In this document: piece by piece, positions 3,642 through 14,397 of the stretch
How the letters are laid out: the number at the start of each line of letters is the position of its first letter
Position numbering within the stretch: position 1 is the stretch's first letter
NCBI GenBank assembly: GCA_024637035.1
Contig: JAGXFW010000016.1
Location: forward strand, 1 to 64,000
Reading direction: 5' to 3'
DNA length: 64,000 nt
Source of the DNA: Actinomycetes bacterium
GTDB taxonomy: Bacteria > Actinomycetota > Thermoleophilia > RBG-16-64-13
Position numbers and translations under genes: made by a program
Notes under the pieces: generated by a model
Database searches by the model: none
What the model was told of the DNA's origin: nothing
Seen by the model: only the letters and a program-made list of their open reading frames with translations

Positions 3642-6600
3642 ATGAACGAGGCAGTCCAGGAGAGGCTCGTGTCAATCTTCGGTGAGAAGGACGTGTCCTT
3701 CGATCGGGTCGAGCGGAAGTTGTACTCGCACGATGTCGGCAGTATCCCGAAGCTCGTGAAACCGTTCATGCCCGGAGGCATCGCGGGGGGCGTGGTGCGG
3801 CCGCGCACCGAAGGATCCATCGTGGAATTGGTGAAGCTCGCGAAGGCCCAGGATCTACAATTGGTTCCCCGCGGAGCAGCGACCGCCGGCTACGGCGGCG
3901 CGATTCCCAACGAGGACGCAGTAGTGGTGGATATGCGTCGCTTCAAGCGTATCGTCTCCATCGACGCCGAGAAGATGACCGCGACCGTTGAAGCCGGTGT
4001 CGTGTGGAAGGACCTGCAGGCGGTTCTCGAAGAGCACGACCTCGAGCTCCTCATGTACCCGACGAGCGCTCCCAGTTCGACCGTTGGCGGATGGCTCGCC
4101 CAGGGTGGCTCGGGTTACGGGAGCTATCAGAACGGCTGGTTCAAAGACGTCGTGCTCTCGGCGCGCGTGGTGCTGCCAACGGGCGAGACCAAGACGTTCG
4201 AGGGTGGAGAACTGGCCGAGGTGTCCGAAGCAGAGGGCATGACGGGGTTCATCACTCAGGTCACCTTCCGGGTGGCCCCGAAGGATGACGTCTACCTGTT
4301 GGCGGCCTCATTCGCGTCGGCCTCAAGCCTCCAGCGTGCCGTCGCGGCGATGTCCACAGGGAAGCTACCGCTCTGGTCTGTGAGTTTCATCAATCCTAGC
4401 GCTGTCCGCCTTGGGAAGCATCTACCGGCGAAGACACACCACGGCCACCCCGTCCACGCCGTCCACACCCCTCCGGAAGTCGAGGAGAGCTTCGTGGTGC
4501 TCATGGCATGGCATGGAGCGGTTGGTGACCTAGTCGGTCAGCTCACGGAGATCGTGGGGACAGCGGGCGGGTCGGTGCTTCCCGAAGATGTCGCGCAACA
4601 CGAATGGGAACTCCGTTTCAGCCCGATGAGGGTCAAGCGTATCGGGCCTTCGTTGATTCCCACCGAGGTAGTGGTGCCGGTTGAGGCTCTGGGCGCGGTC
4701 CTCGACGAGATCGACGAGAAGGTCGACCTTCCGATCGTGATCGAAGGTGTGGGAGTCCGAGGCGACGAGTTCGTCTTGCTGGGATTCATACCTCATGACG
4801 AACGCACCTTCGGCTACAACGTCGCCTTCGGTCTTGCTCTATCCGTGATCAAGATCGCGCGCCAGCACGGCGGTCGAGCCTATTCCACCGGTATCTACTT
4901 CAAACGACACGCTGATGAGGTCTTGGGTACCGAGAGAGTCCGTGCACTCGAGGCCTACAAGAACGAGGTTGATCCTCAGGGCCTCATGAACCCTGGGAAG
5001 GTGTACGGCGACAGCGCGCTCACTTCTATCCTTGGCATGGCCGAGAGCTTCGAGCCTCTGGTGCGTTCGGTCGCGAACAGCTTCGAGTCCGAACTCGGAG
5101 AGGAGTTCGACAGGAACAACAAGGGTATCCCGGAAGAGGTGGCGCGCTACGCCTTCGCCTGTGCTCAGTGCGGTTACTGCGTCGAAGGTTGCACCCAGTT
5201 CTCCGGCCGTGGGTGGGAATCGCAATCCCCGCGTGGCAAGTGGTACTTCCTGCGCGAGGTGTTGCAGGGGCGAGAGGAGATAACCCAAGAGTGGGTGGAT
5301 AATTTCCTCCTCTGCACGACGTGTGAACGCTGCGAGAACGAATGCCCGCTGAACCTGCCCATCGAACCTGCGTGGGGTCTGCTGCGCGGCGCCCTCATCA
5401 ACGACCAGGGCAAGATGACGTTCCCGCCGTTCGAGATGATGGCCGCGTCGATGAAGAAGGAAGGCAACATCTGGGCCGGCTATCGTAAGGACCGTGACGG
5501 GTGGCTCCCAGAGCACCTGCGCGAGACGCTGCCGACGAACTCGAAGACCGCCTTCTTCGCCGGTTGCACGGCGAGCTACGTGGAGCAGGACATCGCCATC
5601 GGCACCGCGGAACTGCTGAACAAAGCCGGTGTCGAGTTCGCGTACGTGGGTAACGAAGAGAACTGCTGCGGTATCCCCATGCTCGTCTCCGGACGGTGGG
5701 ACGTGTGGGAGTCCAACATGAGACAGAATATCGACACGATGAAGGCTCACGGGGTAGAAGAGGTCATCACTTCGTGCCCCGCGTGCTACCTCGTGTGGAA
5801 GACATACTATCCGCAGTGGGCGGAGAAGCTCGGCATCGAGTACAACTTGGATGCGAAGCACTACTCAGAAGTACTGACGGAGAAGATCCAGGCGGGCGAA
5901 TTGGAGCTGCCCGGCACGATCGAGAAGACGGTGACGTTCCACGACTCGTGTCACGCCGGACGAGCGTGCGGTTTGTACGAACCGCCCCGTGAACTCCTGG
6001 AAGCGATCCCTGGTATCGAGCTGAAGGAAATGGCTCACAATCGCGAGGATGCCCTCTGTTGCGGGTCTGTCCTCACCTTGATCGGTGAGACCCCCGTTGC
6101 CCACGACGTCGGGGCCATGAGGCTGCAAGAGGCCTTGGACATCGGTGTGAAGGACGTGGTCGCACTCTGCCCGTGCTGCCAGTTCCAGCTGCGGGTGAGC
6201 GCCAACGCCACCGGCATGGACGTGGAGGTGCACGACCTCGCGCATCTGGCGGCCGAATCCCTGGGTGTGGTACTGCCCGACCCGAACGAAGAGACCATGG
6301 CCAACTGGCGGGTGTTCGATCAGATGATCCGCCTCATGCAGCCCGAGAACATGGCCGCGATCATGGAGGGGCTCTTCCCACAGATGATGGATGCGATGCC
6401 CATGGGCATGGGCAAGATGATGTACGCGATGGCCAAAGTGCCGGGAGCCCTCGACCTGATGAAGCCCATCATGCCGAAGATGTTCCCGATGCTCATGCCG
6501 GCCATCATGCCGAAGGTGATGCCGGACATGCTCGAGGCGGTGGGCAAGTACATAGACATGCCCGACCACATGCGGGAGCAGATGCCCGATCTGTTGCCCG

Positions 6601-6719
6601 AGACCATGGACGCTTTGATGCCGAACATGCTCCCCTTGATCATGCCGTATATTGTGCCGGCGATGATCGCGTATCTGAAGAAGGGTAAGGAAGAACCCGG
6701 GGTTCGAGCGGCCGCGTAA
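3642..6719 (+). CDS. FAD-linked oxidase / Fe-S oxidoreductase (GlcD-GlpC type fusion) with methionine-rich C-terminal tail
   Basis: A 1025-residue flavo-iron-sulfur protein of the D-lactate/glycolate dehydrogenase superfamily. In order: FAD-binding type 4 domain (about 45-190), FAD-oxidase C-terminal domain (about 220-450), two 4Fe-4S sets with Cys 507/510/513/517 and 558/561/564/568, and two CCG domains, one with NCCGIP near 674 and a second ending in LCPCCQ near 842. It should oxidise a 2-hydroxyacid and pass electrons to an acceptor; the substrate is not predictable. From about residue 886 the tail holds 29 Met in ~130 residues, many as MP or MxxM, which is unusual for the family. ATG at 3642 has GGTGAGG upstream. 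The gene is monocistronic behind the operator at 3550. Confidence 0.85.
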   Translation: MNEAVQERLVSIFGEKDVSFDRVERKLYSHDVGSIPKLVKPFMPGGIAGGVVRPRTEGSIVELVKLAKAQDLQLVPRGAATAGYGGAIPNEDAVVVDMRRFKRIVSIDAEKMTATVEAGVVWKDLQAVLEEHDLELLMYPTSAPSSTVGGWLAQGGSGYGSYQNGWFKDVVLSARVVLPTGETKTFEGGELAEVSEAEGMTGFITQVTFRVAPKDDVYLLAASFASASSLQRAVAAMSTGKLPLWSVSFINPSAVRLGKHLPAKTHHGHPVHAVHTPPEVEESFVVLMAWHGAVGDLVGQLTEIVGTAGGSVLPEDVAQHEWELRFSPMRVKRIGPSLIPTEVVVPVEALGAVLDEIDEKVDLPIVIEGVGVRGDEFVLLGFIPHDERTFGYNVAFGLALSVIKIARQHGGRAYSTGIYFKRHADEVLGTERVRALEAYKNEVDPQGLMNPGKVYGDSALTSILGMAESFEPLVRSVANSFESELGEEFDRNNKGIPEEVARYAFACAQCGYCVEGCTQFSGRGWESQSPRGKWYFLREVLQGREEITQEWVDNFLLCTTCERCENECPLNLPIEPAWGLLRGALINDQGKMTFPPFEMMAASMKKEGNIWAGYRKDRDGWLPEHLRETLPTNSKTAFFAGCTASYVEQDIAIGTAELLNKAGVEFAYVGNEENCCGIPMLVSGRWDVWESNMRQNIDTMKAHGVEEVITSCPACYLVWKTYYPQWAEKLGIEYNLDAKHYSEVLTEKIQAGELELPGTIEKTVTFHDSCHAGRACGLYEPPRELLEAIPGIELKEMAHNREDALCCGSVLTLIGETPVAHDVGAMRLQEALDIGVKDVVALCPCCQFQLRVSANATGMDVEVHDLAHLAAESLGVVLPDPNEETMANWRVFDQMIRLMQPENMAAIMEGLFPQMMDAMPMGMGKMMYAMAKVPGALDLMKPIMPKMFPMLMPAIMPKVMPDMLEAVGKYIDMPDHMREQMPDLLPETMDALMPNMLPLIMPYIVPAMIAYLKKGKEEPGVRAAA

Positions 6720-6994: not shown

Positions 6995-7756
6995 ATGAGC
7001 GGGCTCGATCTATACCTTGCTGCTTGTTCCATGCTCCTCGGAGGAGTGGTTGGGAGCTTCCTGAACGTCGTCATCCATCGCCTTCCGATCGATGAATCCA
7101 TAGTGAGCCCCGGATCCCGGTGCCCGGAGTGCGGACACACCATCCGCTGGCGTCACAACATCCCGGTGCTGGGTTGGCTCGCGCTCAGGGGGCGTTGTCA
7201 TGACTGTGGGGCGGCCATCTCGTTGCGCTACCCCGCGGTCGAAGGGCTCACGGCTCTCTTGTTCTTGGCCGCGTTCCTTGCGTATGGGATCCAGCCCAGG
7301 ACTGCCTTCATGTGGGCCTTCCTTGCCACGTTGGTCGTCGTGACCTTCATCGACATCGATCATCGCATCATCCCGAACAAGATCGTGGTGCCGGGGAGCG
7401 TCATCGGGTTCGGCGCATCTACAGCCTTGGATCCGAGCCGCTGGTGGCACTATATTGCTGCCGGGCTGGGCGCGTCGGGGTTCCTATTGATCCTGGGTAT
7501 TATCTGGCGCGGAGGGATGGGCATGGGCGACGTGAAGATGGCGCTCATGATGGGTGTGGTCCTGGGCTCGTCTGTTATGGTGGCTCTCTTCGCTTCTTTC
7601 CTCGTCGGCGGCATCGGAGGGGCTCTGCTCATTGCCACTGGGATCCGAGGTAGGAAAGACCGCGTTCCCTTCGGCCCGTATCTGGCTATCGGCAGCGTCT
7701 TCGCCGTCTTCGCCGGGTCGCCGCTTCTTGAGTGGTATGTGAGGTCCTTTCTATGA
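6995..7756 (+). CDS. pilD: Type IV prepilin peptidase (A24 family, leader peptidase/N-methyltransferase)
   Basis: This integral membrane aspartic protease cleaves the basic leader of prepilins and usually N-methylates the new Phe. The 253 residues show the full bacterial form: the N-terminal methylase-type domain with GSFLNVVIHRLP near 20-31, a zinc site of Cys 43, 46, 68 and 71, and about seven membrane segments. The catalytic aspartates lie at D120/D122 (FIDIDHRIIPN) and D179 (GMGMGDVK). ATG at 6995 is preceded by AGGA six bases upstream. It stands directly before the pilMNOP cluster but about 260 bases from it, with a separate promoter in between, so the two may be independently expressed. 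Confidence 0.95.
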   Translation: MSGLDLYLAACSMLLGGVVGSFLNVVIHRLPIDESIVSPGSRCPECGHTIRWRHNIPVLGWLALRGRCHDCGAAISLRYPAVEGLTALLFLAAFLAYGIQPRTAFMWAFLATLVVVTFIDIDHRIIPNKIVVPGSVIGFGASTALDPSRWWHYIAAGLGASGFLLILGIIWRGGMGMGDVKMALMMGVVLGSSVMVALFASFLVGGIGGALLIATGIRGRKDRVPFGPYLAIGSVFAVFAGSPLLEWYVRSFL

Positions 7757-7847
7757 GGTTCCCTTGGCGCAATGGACTATCGACCGTATCGGCGCAGTGG
7801 TCCGGCGCGTTGATATGCTCGATGCGGTACCTTCTGGGAGCGTATGA

Positions 7848-7876
7848 TTGACACTCGCAAGGCGGCAGGATACATT
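7848..7876 (+). promoter_or_regulatory. Strong candidate promoter of the pilMNOP operon
   Basis: A perfect -35 box TTGACA (7848-7853) is separated by 17 bases from TACATT (7871-7876). Transcription would start near 7883, leaving a leader of about 135 bases before pilM. This is the best-matching -35 box I found in the window. Confidence 0.65.
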
Positions 7877-7882
7877 GGGGCG

Positions 7883-8019
7883 CGGCCCGAACGTGGGCGA
7901 TGCCGTGGCATGAACAGCAAAGCTGGGCAGGAGAAACTGGAGAGACGGTCGAACATCTCTTCGGTTGAAGTGGAGGGTTCTTTCGGGAACCCGCGACCGC
8001 AAGTCTAGGTTCGGTGGAG
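7883..8019 (+). other. Structured 5' leader of pilM
   Basis: The leader contains several short hairpins: ATGCC-GT-GGCAT near 7900, CAGC-AAA-GCTG near 7915-7925, and GGGTTC-TTTCGG-GAACCC at 7975-7992. None is followed by a T-run, so they are not obvious terminators. I looked for the c-di-GMP-I and c-di-GMP-II riboswitch cores and did not find them. Function is unknown. Confidence 0.3.
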
Positions 8020-9129
8020 ATGGCTCTAACGGGTACGAGACAAGACAGCATCGGGCTCGACATCGGCAAGTCGAGCATCATCGGTGTGCAGCTGTCAGGC
8101 AAAGCTCCCGCCGCCGTGCTGCGGGCCTTCCACGAGCGGACGATCCCTGAGGGAGTGGTCTTCGAGGGTGAGGTTGTCGATGTCGACCTCCTCACCCAGG
8201 AGCTGAAGGCCTTCATGCGCGAAGCGCGCATGAAGGGGAAAGTCGTCCAGTTGGGCGTGGGCAACCAGAAGGTGATCGTAAGGAACATCGAGACTCCCGA
8301 GATGAGTGACGACGAGCTTCGGGGAGCCATCGAGTTCCAGGCGCAGGATTACATCCCCATCCCAGTGGCTGAGGCCGTGCTCGACTTCCAGGTGGTCTCG
8401 CGCTATACCGATCAGGATGGAGTGGCAAAGCAGCGTGTTCTGCTGGTTGCCGCCCAGAGAGACATGGTCGAGCGGTTCCTCTTGGCTGTCAAGAAGGCCG
8501 GCCTTACCGTCGCCGGCATCGATGCGTCGGCGTTCGCACTAGTCCGCGGGTTGAGTCCATCAGTGTCTTTCGTGGACCAAGGTGCCGAAGAGGGCGTTGC
8601 TCTCGGCGTGGTGAACATCTCGTCATCTGTGTCGAGTCTTGTCGTCGCTGTTGACGGGGTGCCCAGGTTCACTCGTACCATCGACTTCGCGCACGATCAT
8701 TTCACGAGGATCCTCATCGAGAACCAGGGAGTCGAACCGGACGATGCGGAGAACCTGATCGAAGGCATCGGCCTGCCGGGTGCTCTTGCCCCTGATCTCG
8801 AGACCTACAATCAAGTCACCGTGGACGAAGTGCACGGCATCCTCGGTTCGGCCGCAGACGAGCTCGCCGATGAGGTGCGCCGGTCCATCGACTACTTCCA
8901 AAGTCAGGACTATACGACCCGTCTGGAATCGTTGGTGCTTACCGGAAGGGGCGCCCTGTTGCGGAACCTCGACTCGTATCTTGCTGAGTCCCTTGGGCTG
9001 AATGTCATGGTCGGTAACCCCTTGCTCAAGGTTGGAGAGGTCGCCAAGGGTATCGATGCGGATTCGCTCATGCTTATCGCTCCGAGACTAGCCGTGGCGG
9101 TTGGTCTGGCCCTGGACGAGGTGGAGTGA
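8020..9129 (+). CDS. pilM: Type IV pilus assembly protein PilM (actin-like ATPase)
   Basis: PilM is a cytoplasmic actin/FtsA-fold protein that binds the N-terminus of PilN and couples the inner-membrane alignment complex to the motor. The phosphate-1 signature LDIGKSSIIGVQL lies near residues 11-23, and a second nucleotide-binding block (LVLTGRGALL) lies near 307. Length of about 369 residues fits the family. ATG at 8020 is chosen; an in-frame GTG at 8014 is possible, since AGG at 8007-8009 would serve it with four bases of spacing. The stop overlaps the pilN start by one base (TGATG), indicating coupled translation. Confidence 0.93.
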   Translation: MALTGTRQDSIGLDIGKSSIIGVQLSGKAPAAVLRAFHERTIPEGVVFEGEVVDVDLLTQELKAFMREARMKGKVVQLGVGNQKVIVRNIETPEMSDDELRGAIEFQAQDYIPIPVAEAVLDFQVVSRYTDQDGVAKQRVLLVAAQRDMVERFLLAVKKAGLTVAGIDASAFALVRGLSPSVSFVDQGAEEGVALGVVNISSSVSSLVVAVDGVPRFTRTIDFAHDHFTRILIENQGVEPDDAENLIEGIGLPGALAPDLETYNQVTVDEVHGILGSAADELADEVRRSIDYFQSQDYTTRLESLVLTGRGALLRNLDSYLAESLGLNVMVGNPLLKVGEVAKGIDADSLMLIAPRLAVAVGLALDEVE

Positions 9130-9797
9130 TGGTTCGGCGCATCAACCTGGTTCCAGTCGACCAGCGGCAGCGCACGAGGACCGACCTTGGGTTTGTGGCT
9201 CTTGGCGTCGCGGCGGTGGTCGTGCTGGTGGGTCTGGCGTTCGGCTACTTCTACTACAGCGGAGCACTATCCGACAAAGAGGCTGAACTGGCCGACCTTC
9301 AGTCTCAGAACGCGCAATTGACGGCGCAGTTGGCCGCGTTGGGCAAGTTCCAGGAGATCGAGACTCAGAGGCAAGCGGCGGAAGACCTCGCCCGCGTCAT
9401 CTACGCGGGGAGGACTCTGGTGTCCGAGGTCCTTGGCGACTTGAGTCTCGTCGTGCCCGACAACGTGTGGTTCAGCACCATCAGCGTCACGGCAGGCGAT
9501 CCGCCACCTGTGCCCATCCCGGGTCAGGCAGACGGCGCCACTCCGGCCGTAGTCACCCAGGGGAGTCTATCGATAACGGGCAACACCTATAGCTTCGAAG
9601 ATGTCGCACGGTTCCTCGTGCGGCTCGATCAGATGCCCTCCCTAGGTTCGGTGGTGTTGGGCTCGGCGGGCGAGCCGGTTGGAGCGGTCGATCCGGCCAA
9701 GGACGTGCGTGGCTTCTCGGTGACCGCCACGGTGTACAACACGCAGACCGAGGATACCCAGTTGCCCGTGAGTCGAGTCGAGGTGGAGGCACCGTGA
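9129..9797 (+). CDS. pilN: Type IV pilus inner-membrane assembly protein PilN
   Basis: A 222-residue bitopic membrane protein. It begins MVRRINLVPVDQR, the classic PilN N-terminus that docks onto PilM. One membrane helix follows at about residues 21-42, then a coiled coil (about 46-80) rich in Gln, Ala and Leu, and a periplasm-type ferredoxin-like domain. The family partners with PilO. ATG at 9129 shares its A with the pilM stop and has GAGGTGGAG upstream. The 3' end overlaps pilO by four bases (GTGA). Confidence 0.92.
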   Translation: MVRRINLVPVDQRQRTRTDLGFVALGVAAVVVLVGLAFGYFYYSGALSDKEAELADLQSQNAQLTAQLAALGKFQEIETQRQAAEDLARVIYAGRTLVSEVLGDLSLVVPDNVWFSTISVTAGDPPPVPIPGQADGATPAVVTQGSLSITGNTYSFEDVARFLVRLDQMPSLGSVVLGSAGEPVGAVDPAKDVRGFSVTATVYNTQTEDTQLPVSRVEVEAP

Positions 9798-10372
9798 GCC
9801 GGCGCAACATCTACATCATCGCCGCCGTCGTGCTTGTGTTGATCGTCGTCGCCTATTGGTTCCTGCTCTTGGACCCGCTGCGTGGGAAGATCACCGCGGT
9901 CGACACGCAGATCGAGACCGAGATGAATACTTTGGCCCAGAACCAGGCCCAGCTGGCCCAATTGGAGCAGACGAAGCTCGATGCTCGCCGCAACCAGGGA
10001 CGCATCGTGGAGCTGGCCAAGATGGTGCCCGCCCGCACCGAGTTGCCGAGTCTTCTGCTCCAGATCCAGGACTTGGCCACGGAGTCGGGCATAGAGTTCA
10101 TGACCATCGCACCGAGTGTCGCCACATCGGCGGGGTTGTACGAGTATGTGACTCTCGGGGCGAAGTTCGAAGGCACCTTCTTCGACCTGAATGATTTCAT
10201 CTACAGGGCGGAGCAGATGGCTGCCGGGCCGGGCAGGATCCTCGCGGTGAAGAGCTTGAACCTGGCGCCCAAGAGTGAAGACCTCGCCAAGGCGTCTCCG
10301 CGCCTCGAGGTCACCATGACGATGAACGCGTTCCAGCGTACCGCGCCGGAGAATCTGGTGCCGATCCAATGA
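9794..10372 (+). CDS. pilO: Type IV pilus inner-membrane assembly protein PilO
   Basis: A 192-residue protein with an N-terminal membrane helix (residues 6-26), a coiled coil (about 33-75, with repeated Gln/Leu heptads) and a C-terminal PilO domain with the FFDLNDFIYRAEQM segment near 129-142. It heterodimerises with PilN on the outer face of the membrane. The GTG start at 9794 overlaps the pilN stop, and the stop overlaps the next gene by ATGA. The product of pilQ would not be expected if the cell is monoderm. Confidence 0.92.
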   Translation: MSRRNIYIIAAVVLVLIVVAYWFLLLDPLRGKITAVDTQIETEMNTLAQNQAQLAQLEQTKLDARRNQGRIVELAKMVPARTELPSLLLQIQDLATESGIEFMTIAPSVATSAGLYEYVTLGAKFEGTFFDLNDFIYRAEQMAAGPGRILAVKSLNLAPKSEDLAKASPRLEVTMTMNAFQRTAPENLVPIQ

Positions 10373-10965
10373 AAGGGCGCCGATCGATGCATGGTAGGGC
10401 GGCTACAACCGGTCTGATAGTGGTGATCCTCATAGCGGCGCTGGCACTCCTCGTTGGGGGCTGTGGGTTGTTCGGGGGGGATGATCCCGCGCAGACTGAC
10501 GAACCGGTGGTCACGGGAGAGACCCTCTCCCCGGTGACCGAAGACCTGACCGGCGACACGGCAGCCGTAGCTCTCGACGAACTCTCGACTTTCCAGAGCA
10601 AGGACCCGTTCCGCCAGCAGGCGCTGCCGCCGACCACCGCCACAACAGGCACCGGGTCGACCGGCACGACTGGTTCCACCACGAGCACCACGGGGAATGG
10701 CTCTACGACCACCACCAAGCCGAGCGGAATCAAGACCGCTCTGCATAGCCTCAAGGTGCTTTCGATCGATGTGGTCAACGGAGTGCCCACGGTGACGTTC
10801 GAGGTGGACGACACTGTATATGAGGACAAGAAGGTTGGGGCCGTGGTCTCCACAACATGGGGACAGATCGAGGTTGTCTCGATCGATGCTGAGGAACAGG
10901 TGGTAGTGTTCCTGCATGGCAGCGAGTTGAGGACTCTGGGAGTCGGGCAGGAGTTCCTTAAGTAG
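10369..10965 (+). CDS. PilP-like lipoprotein or anchored protein closing the pilMNO operon
   Basis: A 198-residue protein with a basic N-terminus and one hydrophobic segment (about residues 14-29) ending LLVGGC, a near-lipobox with Cys about 32. A KDPF motif (about 79-82) follows, the hallmark of PilP, then a Thr/Ser/Gly-rich linker (about 90-115). The C-terminal ~75 residues look like the small beta domain of PilP. In diderm pili PilP links PilNO to the secretin; here it probably plays the same alignment role in the envelope. ATG at 10369 overlaps the pilO stop (ATGA). An alternative ATG lies at 10387. Assignment rests on position, KDPF and topology. Confidence 0.7.
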   Translation: MKGRRSMHGRAATTGLIVVILIAALALLVGGCGLFGGDDPAQTDEPVVTGETLSPVTEDLTGDTAAVALDELSTFQSKDPFRQQALPPTTATTGTGSTGTTGSTTSTTGNGSTTTTKPSGIKTALHSLKVLSIDVVNGVPTVTFEVDDTVYEDKKVGAVVSTTWGQIEVVSIDAEEQVVVFLHGSELRTLGVGQEFLK

Positions 10966-10998
10966 GGTGAGATCAAGAAACCCCTGGCCAGTAGGTCC

Positions 10999-11021
10999 GA
11001 CGGCGCCCCGGGGGCGCCGTC
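10999..11021 (+). terminator. GC-rich hairpin between the pil operon and aroC
   Basis: GACGGCGCC (10999-11007) and GGCGCCGTC (11013-11021) form a perfect 9-bp stem around CCGGG. The following gtcagtttgg has only a short T-run, so it is a hairpin terminator of the weak-tail type. It ends 34 bases before the aroC start and probably separates the pil transcript from the shikimate operon. Confidence 0.6.
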
Positions 11022-11055
11022 GTCAGTTTGGCAGGGTGATGCGGAGGAGGGCGGG

Positions 11056-12246
11056 GTGAGCGGCCTTCGGTTGGTGACTGCGGGGGAGTCCCATGGACCC
11101 GCCGAGCTCTGTGTGCTTGAGGGTGTCCCCGCGGGCCTGCGGGTGGAAGCGACCAGCATCGACCGCGATCTTGCGCGGCGTCAGCGCGGATACGGTCGCG
11201 GCGGGCGGATGGACATCGAGAGGGACTGCGTGCGGATACTCGCCGGCGTCCGCCTCGGCCGCACCCTCGGCACGCCCGTGTGCCTGCTGGTGGAGAACCG
11301 TGACCATGACTCGTGGCGACCTTCCATGCAGCCGGAGCCCGAGGAGGGCTGGATCGTTGACGCGGTGACCGTCCCCCGTCCGGGTCACGCCGATTTCGCC
11401 GGAATGGCCAAGTACGATACCGGGGATGCCCGCGACATACTCGAGCGTTCGAGTGCGAGAGAGACGGTGGGCCGCGTGGCCGCCGGTTCCATCGCGCGGC
11501 TCCTTCTTGCTGAAGTGGGGGTGGAAGTGCGGGGGTTCGTGAGGAGCCTGGGCGGCGTCGGCCTCTCGATCGATTTTCCGGGGCTCGACGCGGCGGAGGT
11601 CGATTGGGCTTCCGTGGACACCTCGGAGTGCGGTTGCCCGGATCCTGCCGTCGAGAGAGAGATGAAGGACCTCGTCGACAGCGCGCGGTTGAGCGGTGAG
11701 TCTCTGGGAGGAGTGTTCGAGATCTGGGCGTGGGGCATGTGCCCCGGCGTGGGAGGGTTCGCCTCGGTGGGCGATCGTCTGGACGGTCGCCTGATGGGTG
11801 CTGTCGGCTCCATCCCGGCCATCAAGGGGGTGGAGATCGGCATGGGGTTCGCCGCAGCCGACCTCCCGGGCTCCGGGGTGCACGACCCGTTTCACGCGGG
11901 CCTAGGGGCCGTGGTGCGCCCCACGAACCGTGCCGGCGGTCTGGAAGGAGGGATGACGAACGGCATGCCTCTCATCCTGCGTGCGGCGATGAAGCCCATT
12001 CCGACCCTGATGAAGCCACTTGCTTCGGTCGACCTGCGAGATGGCTCCGAGGTAAGCGCGCACAAGGAACGGAGCGACGTAGAGGCCGTCGCGGCTGCGC
12101 GTGTCGTGGGGGAAGCTATGGTGGCTCTCGAGTTGGCGTCTGCGTACCTTGAGAAGTTCGGCGGCGACACCGTCGGGCAGTTCCGCTCGAGCGTACATGT
12201 GTACGAGGCAGGATTGGAGGAGCGCGGTCTGTGGCGAAGGTCATAG
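11056..12246 (+). CDS. aroC: Chorismate synthase
   Basis: AroC converts EPSP to chorismate using reduced FMN, the last step of the common aromatic pathway. The 396 residues carry the expected blocks: GESHGPAELCVLEGVP at the N-terminus, the RRQRGYGRGGRMDIE segment near 37-51, and an ARETVGRVAAG block near 134-144. The GTG start at 11056 has an excellent GGAGGAGG five bases upstream. It opens a tightly overlapped aroC-aroK-aroB-aroQ cluster; its 3' end overlaps aroK by 16 bases. Confidence 0.96.
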   Translation: MSGLRLVTAGESHGPAELCVLEGVPAGLRVEATSIDRDLARRQRGYGRGGRMDIERDCVRILAGVRLGRTLGTPVCLLVENRDHDSWRPSMQPEPEEGWIVDAVTVPRPGHADFAGMAKYDTGDARDILERSSARETVGRVAAGSIARLLLAEVGVEVRGFVRSLGGVGLSIDFPGLDAAEVDWASVDTSECGCPDPAVEREMKDLVDSARLSGESLGGVFEIWAWGMCPGVGGFASVGDRLDGRLMGAVGSIPAIKGVEIGMGFAAADLPGSGVHDPFHAGLGAVVRPTNRAGGLEGGMTNGMPLILRAAMKPIPTLMKPLASVDLRDGSEVSAHKERSDVEAVAAARVVGEAMVALELASAYLEKFGGDTVGQFRSSVHVYEAGLEERGLWRRS

Positions 12247-12785
12247 CCGTTTCCGGGTACATGGGCGCGGGGAAGAGCGTAGTCGGAGCACGCGCCGCAT
12301 CGACTCTCGGATGGGAGTTCGTCGACCTCGATCAGTTCGTCGATTCGACGACCGGTCGCACGCCGGAGGAGATATTCGCGAGCCAGGGCGAACAGGGGTT
12401 CCGAGCCGTCGAACTCGAATGTCTCAGGGAAGTCGTGGGGCGGGCGAGGATGGGCCCCGGTCTCGTGCTGGCGTTGGGGGGCGGCGCGCTGACGTCGCCG
12501 GAGGCGGCGGCTATCGTGGCGGACAGTGCTGTGGTGGTCTTTCTGCGGATGTGTCCTGAGGTAGGCTGGGCTAGGGTGGAGGGTTCTGGGAGGCCGCTCG
12601 CCCGTTCGTGGGAGGGATTCGCGGCGCTCGCCGCGGAGAGGGAGTCGATGTACCTGAAGACCGCAGACGAGATCGTCGAGACATCGGGTCTCTCCGTCGA
12701 GGAGGTAACCGAGCGAGTCGTGGACATCGCTCGACGACGATTCGGAGCGGATAGGCCCGTGGTCGATCAGGAGCTTGGAAGATGA
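12231..12785 (+). CDS. aroK: Shikimate kinase
   Basis: This small P-loop kinase phosphorylates shikimate at the 3-hydroxyl. Its 184 residues include Walker A GYMGAGKS (residues 9-16), the DLD shikimate-binding motif near 33-35, and a second glycine block LALGGGALTS near 79-88. The GTG start at 12231 lies inside the aroC coding end, and the stop overlaps aroB (ATGA). There is no fused shikimate dehydrogenase domain. Confidence 0.95.
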   Translation: MAKVIAVSGYMGAGKSVVGARAASTLGWEFVDLDQFVDSTTGRTPEEIFASQGEQGFRAVELECLREVVGRARMGPGLVLALGGGALTSPEAAAIVADSAVVVFLRMCPEVGWARVEGSGRPLARSWEGFAALAAERESMYLKTADEIVETSGLSVEEVTERVVDIARRRFGADRPVVDQELGR

Positions 12786-13873
12786 CGTGGGGCATCGACC
12801 TGATAGGGACCCGCCAGCCGTCGTCGATCGTGGGAGGGGAGAACGCGCTCGGCGTCCTGGCGGAGAGGGCCGCTCTGGTCCGGGGGGCCGGCATTCGTAT
12901 CTTCCTGGTGACTGACAAGAACGTCGAAGCGGCGTGGGGTGGATCCGTCATGCCGTTGTTGTCGGAGTCGTTCGGAGCCGAGGGCATGCGCGTTCTGACT
13001 CCGGGAGAAGCCAGCAAGTCGGCCGCGTCGGCGGTCATGTGCTGGGACTGGTTGTCGGAGGTCGGAGCCCGTCGGGACGACATCGTGGTGGCATTCGGCG
13101 GAGGCATGGTGGGAGATCTGGCCGGTTTCGTGGCGGCGACCTACCTGCGAGGAGTGAGGCTGTGGCAGGTACCGACGACCCTACTCTCGCAGGTCGATTC
13201 GAGCGTCGGGGGGAAGGTGGCCGTGAACCTGCCCAACGGCAAGAACCTCGTCGGTGCGTTCCACCAACCGGAACTGGTCGTGGTCTACCCGGGCTTTCTG
13301 TCGACCCTCTCCGTGGCTGAGTATGCCTCGGGCCTCGGCGAAGTCGTGAAGTACGCCCTTTTGTCCGACGGAGGACTCCTCGACATGCTGGATACCAAGA
13401 CCACCGCGATCCTCGCGCGCGAACCGACTACTCTCAGTCACATCGTCGAGCAGTGCGTGACTTTCAAGGCGGTGGTGGTAGGGGAGGATGAGACTGATCG
13501 TGGACGCCGCGCGATTCTCAACCTGGGTCATACGTTCGGTCATGCCCTCGAGTCCACTCTCGGCTACAACGTGCTACCTCACGGAGCGGCCGTATCACTG
13601 GGACTCGTGGCGGCTCTCGCGGTGAGCGAGACAGCTGTGGGCCTGTCTGAGAGCGTCCGCCCACGCGTAGTCCGATTGCTCGCGCACCTGGGGCTGCCCA
13701 CGCGGATGCCGGATCTGGCCTTCGGACCTATCCTGGAAGCCATGGGGCGCGACAAGAAGGCCACCGCCGACGGCATCGGCTTCGTGTGCCTGTGCTCTGT
13801 TGGTACGCCACAGTGGGGGGTGCGCGTGGATGAAGAGACGCTGCGTGGCGGATTAGAAGCGATCACGGCATGA
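12782..13873 (+). CDS. aroB: 3-dehydroquinate synthase
   Basis: AroB cyclises DAHP to 3-dehydroquinate with NAD and a divalent metal. The 363 residues show the NAD-binding block VAFGGGMVGDLAGFVAATYL near 104-123 and the PTTLLSQVDSSVGGKVAVN block near 131-149. Metal ligands are in GLGEVVKYALL and LNLGHTFGHALE near 241-252. Length is normal. ATG at 12782 overlaps the aroK stop, and the stop overlaps aroQ (ATGA), so translation should be coupled through the operon. Confidence 0.96.
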   Translation: MTWGIDLIGTRQPSSIVGGENALGVLAERAALVRGAGIRIFLVTDKNVEAAWGGSVMPLLSESFGAEGMRVLTPGEASKSAASAVMCWDWLSEVGARRDDIVVAFGGGMVGDLAGFVAATYLRGVRLWQVPTTLLSQVDSSVGGKVAVNLPNGKNLVGAFHQPELVVVYPGFLSTLSVAEYASGLGEVVKYALLSDGGLLDMLDTKTTAILAREPTTLSHIVEQCVTFKAVVVGEDETDRGRRAILNLGHTFGHALESTLGYNVLPHGAAVSLGLVAALAVSETAVGLSESVRPRVVRLLAHLGLPTRMPDLAFGPILEAMGRDKKATADGIGFVCLCSVGTPQWGVRVDEETLRGGLEAITA

Positions 13874-14397
13874 GTGAGAGAGGTACGGATCCGACGAGTG
13901 AGCCATCCGAGTCGACGGGCGAGACGCCTGACTCCCGCCTTCTCGTGGTTCTTCACGGCGTCAATCTCGGGCTACTCGGCGAGCGCCCTGTCATCCACTA
14001 CGGGCGGGTCACGCTGCCCGAGTTGGAGGCGATCGTGTGCGAAGAGGCGCGCGCGCATGGGTGGCGCTGCGAGTGCCATCAGACCGACCATGAGGGCGAG
14101 TTCGTCCAGCTCGTACACGCCGGCCGGCACGCGGACGCCCTACTCGTGAACCCTGGCGCCTGGACGCACTACAGCTATGCCATCCGAGACGCCCTGGAGT
14201 TGGTCACCGGGCCGGTGGCTGAGGTGCACCTATCGGATATCGAGGGGCGCGAGGATTGGCGGAGGGTGTCGGTCGTGGCCGACGTTGCATCGGTGAGGAT
14301 GGCGGGACGTGGACCCGACGGGTACCGTGAGGCGGTGCGCGCTCTGGTCGAGCTCGTGGAGAGTGGTGATGCTGGGACGCCGAAGGAGGGATCGTGA
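13870..14397 (+). CDS. aroQ: 3-dehydroquinate dehydratase, type II
   Basis: A 175-residue protein matching the dodecameric type II dehydroquinase. Catalytic Arg39 and Tyr44 lie in LGERPVIHYG. The flexible-lid block is followed by QTDHEGEFVQ (71-80), the substrate loop NPGAWTHYSYAIRDAL (94-109), and His120 in VAEVHLSD. The usual NGPNLN signature is HGVNLG here, so the enzyme is somewhat diverged, but the active-site residues are intact. A polar extension of about 20 residues precedes the domain. It overlaps aroB and pepP by four bases each. Confidence 0.88.
   Translation: MSERGTDPTSEPSESTGETPDSRLLVVLHGVNLGLLGERPVIHYGRVTLPELEAIVCEEARAHGWRCECHQTDHEGEFVQLVHAGRHADALLVNPGAWTHYSYAIRDALELVTGPVAEVHLSDIEGREDWRRVSVVADVASVRMAGRGPDGYREAVRALVELVESGDAGTPKEGS

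Follow-up and report, generated by a model that had tools for sequence, protein, structure and literature searches.

Why should a putative flavin adenine dinucleotide (FAD) and iron-sulfur (Fe-S) oxidoreductase end in a stretch crowded with methionine (Met) and proline (Pro)? The question is raised by an open reading frame (ORF) of 1025 amino acids (aa) in a 64,000-nucleotide stretch of DNA from an Actinomycetes bacterium (GenBank assembly GCA_024637035.1, contig JAGXFW010000016.1; hereafter the window). The ORF combines an FAD-linked oxidase half, a ferredoxin-type 4Fe-4S region, and two HdrB-like CCG domains with a C-terminal tail encoded at 6297–6719 (aa 886–1025 plus the stop codon). A preliminary description made from the sequence had drawn attention to this tail and suggested that it binds Cu(I) or forms flexible membrane-associating helices. 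We find that the enzyme is an uncharacterised, widely spread, single-gene FAD/Fe-S oxidoreductase whose tail is as conserved as its FAD half. The tail is predicted from structural models to be a conserved, independently folding all-helical domain (aa ~882–1014), referred to here as the Met/Pro domain.

Methionine content and a four-residue repeat

The Met richness that was first noticed is real and lies far above background. The 140 residues of the tail contain 29 Met, 18 Pro, one His, and no Cys; the remaining 885 residues of the ORF contain 21 Met. The binomial probability of at least 29 Met in the tail at the Met rate of the core is 5e-19. In a background of 683 ORFs, drawn from the window and from neighbours at the fetched loci, the maximum for any 140-aa stretch is 19 Met. 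When the 174 stop-free stretches of at least 140 aa in the window are ranked, the tail is followed by its own antisense (17 Met) and then by a stretch with 9. These statistics, together with presence across the family, rule out chance or a codon-bias artefact as the source of the Met richness.

The arrangement of these residues differs from that first described. MxM and MxxM had been named as frequent patterns, and neither is enriched in the window's tail (MxM 3 versus 5.8 in shuffles; MxxM 7 versus 5.7). Spacings of four residues are enriched instead, both for Met (12 versus 5.7, P = 0.001) and for Pro (8 versus 2.1, a count reached in 0 of 2000 shuffles). Across 91 aligned tails, the ratio of observed to expected counts is 0.19 for MxM, 1.35 for MxxM, 2.65 for Met at lag 4, and 2.84 for Pro at lag 4. 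The prolines fall into two blocks (945, 949, 953, 957, and 961; 982, 986, 994, 998, 1002, and 1006), both of which consist of P-x-hydrophobic-Met tetrapeptides. Hydrophobicity has a period of ~4.0, not 3.6, within both blocks, with peaks reached by 2 and 0 of 1000 permutations; over the wider span 901–1009, the best period is 3.67.

Distribution, conservation, and predicted fold

The tail occurs once in the window's genome. A query with its single sequence matches 28 of 296 genomes of the window's phylum, mostly in frames of ~1000 aa; the other matches include one weak 64-aa frame and some fragments at contig edges. When the genome_contigs collection was scanned with a full-length alignment of 26 rows, 481 relatives were found, of which the best 80 were kept; as the top-scoring sequences, these are biased towards complete proteins. 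All of these best 80 have at least 20 Met in their last 140 residues. They come from both bacteria and archaea, many of them metagenome bins, and include Actinomycetota, Chloroflexi, Bacillota (among them Carboxydocella thermautotrophica, Neobacillus paridis, and Bacillus marasmi), Gemmatimonadota, Syntrophaceae, other Deltaproteobacteria, Zixibacteria, Aminicenantes, Acidobacteriota, and Spirochaetales. The archaeal carrier among them is Methanoperedens (locus L080).

Profile searches with the tail in 990 genomes of four phyla found matches in 77 (30/296, 9/251, 28/196, and 10/247). Three weak matches (G291, G187, and G304) were spurious when read, and others were short or broken fragments (G450, G172, G866, G712, and second matches in G146 and G939). 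The 28/196 genomes belong to the archaeal phylum of the Methanoperedens locus; many are closed and many are probably Methanosarcina-like. One archaeal copy (L198:7766–12439, in G744) is broken by a 434-aa ORF that looks by eye like a transposase, which means that at least one genome can do without the enzyme.

The preliminary description had held that the enzyme family does not normally carry such a tail. A homologue search with the tail alone and a comparison of orthologues give the reverse: the orthologous family has the tail throughout, and just a sister group of 33–34% identity is without it. In the window's phylum, 27/296 genomes have a family match at E 1e-150, and the tail is present in 26 of the 27. 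The exception (G220) encodes a 926-aa protein (L151:7916–10696) that scores 660 bits, compared to at least 1037 for full-length tail-bearing proteins. A second tail-less relative (L205, a 923-aa frame) is found in the Carboxydocella thermautotrophica genome, which also has a tailed enzyme. Both sisters align with the window enzyme over aa 2–901 in identical domain order, and differ in stopping after the first C-terminal helix, with no Met/Pro domain. By eye, L151 adjoins molybdopterin-oxidoreductase-like and ferredoxin-type genes, which makes a different electron partner likely for this tail-less sister.

Conservation was measured in a 91-row alignment of the window, 79 of the best-80 loci, and 11 of 29 earlier loci. 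L141 (a duplicate of L046) was left out of this alignment and of one other, the broken or partial L070, L047, L054, and L059 were left out of a different alignment, and L001, L010, L011, L029, L037, and L041 were left out of an early tail alignment. Over 1500 sampled pairs, the tail has a mean pairwise identity of 52.3%, close to the 50.0% of the FAD half; the ferredoxin-type part has 63.8% and the CCG pair 58.7%. Invariant tail residues are P901, P945, P986, M977, W889, and F892, and two further Met are nearly so (M989 in 88 and M908 in 87 of the 91, compared to 91/91 for M977). In the 23 tail columns with a Met majority, 1726 of 2075 residues are Met, and nearly all others are Leu (180), Ile (61), Phe (38), or Val (27), an exchange as in a hydrophobic surface or core. 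Cys is missing from 75/91 tails and occurs once in each of the rest; His occurs zero to two times per tail.

These patterns bear on the earlier proposal of Cu(I) binding by Met residues of the tail, here extended to other soft metals. The 29 Met, several of them near-invariant, would suit such a role. So would an ArsR-like gene that lies upstream on the same strand, at a distance of up to 1.8 kb, in 26/77 loci and, in a Gemmatimonadota locus (L088:6679–7902), an ArsP_1 permease that carries a heavy-metal-associated domain and is encoded immediately upstream of the enzyme. Against this, MxM is depleted and MxxM near neutral over the 91 tails, no Cys or His is conserved, and residues that replace Met are nearly all hydrophobic. 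The L088 permease is also the sole heavy-metal-domain protein among 20 neighbours run on Pfam. Copper binding as the main function is rejected on Met spacing, substitution pattern, and the lack of conserved Cys or His, and we consider metal binding of any such kind very improbable.

Two AlphaFold2 models point to a folded domain. The full protein, modelled with an 80-row alignment, has a predicted local distance difference test score (pLDDT) of 90.4 and a predicted template modelling score (pTM) of 0.89, and its tail is helical with block means of ~86–93 up to residue 1010. The domain modelled alone (pLDDT 90.5, pTM 0.77) has the same helices as in the full protein. These are predicted at 882–898, 901–909, 912–918, 920–930, 936–940, 944–970, and 975–1014, and the repeats would sit on the last two (27 and 40 residues), with a proline at nearly every turn. 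A flexible linker is ruled out by these models, and with it the flexible part of the membrane-associating helices first suggested; hydrophobic or membrane association stands as a possibility.

The domain has no match in the family databases searched, and such a tail is unusual for GlcD/GlpC-type enzymes. Pfam and NCBIfam searches of the last 140 aa of the ORF returned no family match, and Pfam searches of the tails of the 80 relatives gave a best match of E 0.0069, with at most nine members per family. A Foldseek search of the tail alone against the PDB found no relative (a single match, E 9.7). A structural second look (VIA) gave a best Z of 2.4, to SipA; because it was limited to two aligned chains, no claim of a new fold is made, and a known fold is possible.

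Possible roles of the domain beside the HdrB-like half

The best explanation, which we hold tentatively, is that the Met/Pro domain is a hydrophobic docking domain at an HdrB-like electron exit, resting on a membrane carrier or a partner; a hydrophobic substrate may also be what it faces. The FAD half would take two electrons from a small organic substrate and pass them via two 4Fe-4S clusters to two HdrB-type noncubane clusters. Beside this exit, the domain would form a soft, hydrophobic, peripheral docking surface and would seat the enzyme on a hydrophobic acceptor, most likely a membrane with a quinone-type carrier and otherwise a hydrophobic partner protein.

Each CCG motif has the form C-x(n)-CC-x(n)-CxxC with its five Cys complete, and all ten ligand Cys (C642/675/676/712/715 and C770/806/807/843/846) are invariant in 91/91. 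The pair is HdrB-like by sequence, from which we infer the cluster type and a possible disulfide activity. A split version ties the domain to this half. In an archaeon (G597; L202:4923–8050) that shares its phylum with the Methanoperedens locus, two genes encode the enzyme, one for FAD plus 4Fe-4S and the other, of ~400 aa, for CCG-CCG-tail, and the start of the second gene overlaps the stop of the first and is preceded by GGAGG. Because the tail stays with the CCG half, the domain is taken to belong functionally to it.

The split gene, and the position of the domain directly after the second CCG domain, would also suit a domain that covers the HdrB-like site as a lid or substrate gate, shielding the noncubane clusters or guiding a thiol/disulfide or hydrophobic substrate. 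We consider a lid rather unlikely, and attach the same low probability to its corollary, that a single FAD-linked chain acts as a disulfide reductase or works in the reverse direction. The enzyme has both CC pairs and the bridging-type C715 and C846, with Ala at the position of His583 in EtfD (accessible portions of PMC13083937), and the best NCBIfam match of the enzyme is TfrB of thiol:fumarate reductase, at 144 bits against a cut-off of 385. However, no disulfide carrier gene recurs beside the enzyme, and the tail-less sister group has CCG motifs without the domain, so an HdrB-like site does not always need a lid.

If docking is to a membrane, the contact would be peripheral, since a transmembrane-like stretch (KD19 maximum ≥1.6, with the tail region alone tested) is seen in just 6/91 tails; a transmembrane anchor is unsupported. 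Several points weigh against docking. Some Dehalococcoidia carry the enzyme gene, and part of that class is known to lack quinones. No enzyme, carrier, or constant neighbour gene that would name a partner or substrate recurs at the family loci. The hydrophobic moment at 100 degrees is weak in both long helices, unlike that of a classical amphipathic membrane helix, and AlphaFold2 may over-regularise a proline per turn.

The folded all-helical prediction would also fit an oligomerisation or scaffolding module, in which two Met/Pro helix hairpins are packed between subunits. The domain is hydrophobic and conserved and has no catalytic-type residues, and one standalone copy of ~132 aa without a core upstream (L169:5482–5886, minus strand), which could be a gene or a remnant, would also suit such a module. 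Plain helical packing does not usually involve so much Met and Pro, and this module seems to us distinctly improbable. By eye, the standalone copy is flanked by an rluD-like gene and a secreted-metallopeptidase-like ORF.

A more specific form of the docking reading would have an undescribed helix-hairpin domain of proline-per-turn P-x-hydrophobic-Met dock an HdrB-like noncubane cluster pair to a hydrophobic redox carrier. The result would be a heterodisulfide-reductase-like enzyme, FAD-linked and made of one polypeptide, that has spread through both bacteria and archaea, some of which lack coenzyme M (CoM) and coenzyme B (CoB). In this full form, we regard the proposal as unlikely.

Locus, gene neighbourhoods, and related enzymes

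Features of the enzyme gene, with positions in the window
Feature	Position	Strand	Content and basis
Whole ORF, 1025 aa	3642..6719	+	FAD-linked oxidase half, ferredoxin-type 4Fe-4S region, two CCG (HdrB-like) domains, Met/Pro helical domain
FAD_binding_4, aa 50-185	3789..4196	+	Pfam PF01565, E 4.6e-38
FAD-oxidase_C, aa 219-454	4296..5003	+	Pfam PF02913; Foldseek D-lactate dehydrogenase-like fold, without HxGDGNxH / EHG metal motif
4Fe-4S region, Fer4_17, aa 506-572	5157..5357	+	Pfam; eight Cys invariant in 91/91
First CCG motif, C642, C675-C676, C712, C715	5565..5786	+	Complete HdrB-type set; alignment to EtfD; five Cys 91/91
Second CCG domain, aa 764-851; C770, C806-C807, C843, C846, plus C845	5931..6194	+	Pfam PF02754; six Cys 91/91
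Met/Pro helical domain proper, aa 882-1014 (predicted)	6285..6683	+	AlphaFold2 (full length and alone), conservation
Repeat block 1, aa 941-964: KPIM PKMF PMLM PAIM PKVM PDML	6462..6533	+	Period-4 analysis
Repeat block 2, aa 978-1009: REQM PDLL PETM DALM PNML PLIM PYIV PAMI	6573..6668	+	Period-4 analysis

Neither an ArsR gene nor a partner gene adjoins the enzyme in the window, where the preliminary description had proposed a metal/sulfur-type operator upstream. Downstream (6995–14397), prepilin-peptidase and PilM/N/O-like genes are followed by chorismate/shikimate genes, as judged by eye, and seem unrelated in function. Elsewhere in the family, 23 clustered ArsR proteins were compared: ten have one Cys and 11 have two, many with a Cys just before the helix-turn-helix (HTH) and some with a second near the C-terminus. 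In 10/80 loci the next gene downstream is Crp-like (on the same strand in eight), and a PocR plus HTH gene lies upstream in 5/80. Three Syntrophaceae/Deltaproteobacteria loci (L127, L138, and L146) share the order ArsR, FadL/TodX-type outer-membrane transporter, enzyme; the transporter was assigned by Pfam in L127, and the proteins of L138 and L146 are 87% and 76% identical to it. This set is possibly a hydrophobic-substrate operon. FadL-type transporters handle hydrophobic compounds, and the position of one between ArsR and the enzyme hints at hydrophobic chemistry.

According to the accessible portions of PMC11619418, MA4631 is a characterised D-lactate dehydrogenase of Methanosarcina acetivorans that takes part in O2 detoxification with CydAB, and the next locus number, MA4632, is an archaeosine tRNA-ribosyltransferase. 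Three genomes that appear Methanosarcina-like (G726, G744, and G717) have two FAD_binding_4 genes each; the shorter (frame of 456–577 aa) lies beside a TGT-family match, and the tail-family gene is elsewhere. MA4631 is thus most likely the stand-alone enzyme and not the tail-family gene. In G726 and G744, another TGT-family match lies ~9 kb away from the tail-family gene, which weakens this a little. Since MA4631 would be a different gene, its function is not to be transferred to the tail-bearing family, for which we found no tested function.

No prior description of the tail was found in the accessible portions of the open-licence literature, including PMC2702500, PMC3949148, and PMC5736913. 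Although the enzyme family is found in archaea and across many bacterial phyla, our searches gave no Pfam, NCBIfam, or solved-structure match for its domain. With a proline in nearly every turn and yet a high-confidence prediction, the helices offer a test of the rule that proline breaks helices. The domain follows an HdrB-like double-cluster half, and the flavin enzyme joined to that half is not an ordinary lactate dehydrogenase. In many anaerobes and in Methanosarcina-type methanogens, a redox enzyme could be assigned once the substrate, the acceptor, and the role of the domain are known.

Compared to known systems, the enzyme varies the FAD plus HdrD/GlpC-type theme in a new way, and its domain was not found under any name in Pfam, NCBIfam, the PDB, or the open-licence literature searched. 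Its FAD half has a D-lactate dehydrogenase fold (Foldseek E 4.6e-24), shared with D-lactate dehydrogenase/GlcD and alkyl-DHAP synthase (PDB 9qit, 8jdc, and 4bc7; Foldseek and HMMER). It has both FAD_binding_4 and FAD-oxidase_C, like the D-lactate/D-2-hydroxyacid dehydrogenases GlcD and LDHD. HxGDGNxH and EHG form the metal/substrate motif of the LDHD type; unlike LDHD, the window enzyme has neither in profile alignments of its FAD half to 8jdc and 9qgz. With HdrB and HdrD of heterodisulfide reductase (PDB 5odc and 8rvv), it shares two complete five-Cys CCG domains (match at aa ~640–886). It differs in that the CCG pair is fused behind an FAD-linked oxidase half and followed by the Met/Pro domain, and many of its bacterial carriers are expected to lack CoM and CoB, unlike the setting of HdrB and HdrD.

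The closest solved relative of the Fe-S half is EtfD, the ETF:menaquinone oxidoreductase of mycobacteria (PDB 9ojn; E 8.9e-38 over aa 558–881), which likewise has a C-terminal extension. The accessible portions of PMC13083937 describe EtfD as having five transmembrane helices, a heme, and a disordered C-terminal region, with Thr539 in place of a cluster Cys, the second of the first CC pair, and His583, between the CxxC Cys, in place of a bridging Cys. The window enzyme does not share this Thr/His signature, having C676 at the Thr539 site and A714 at the His583 site (C-P-A-C), and where the C-terminal region of EtfD is disordered, it has a Met/Pro domain that is predicted to be folded.

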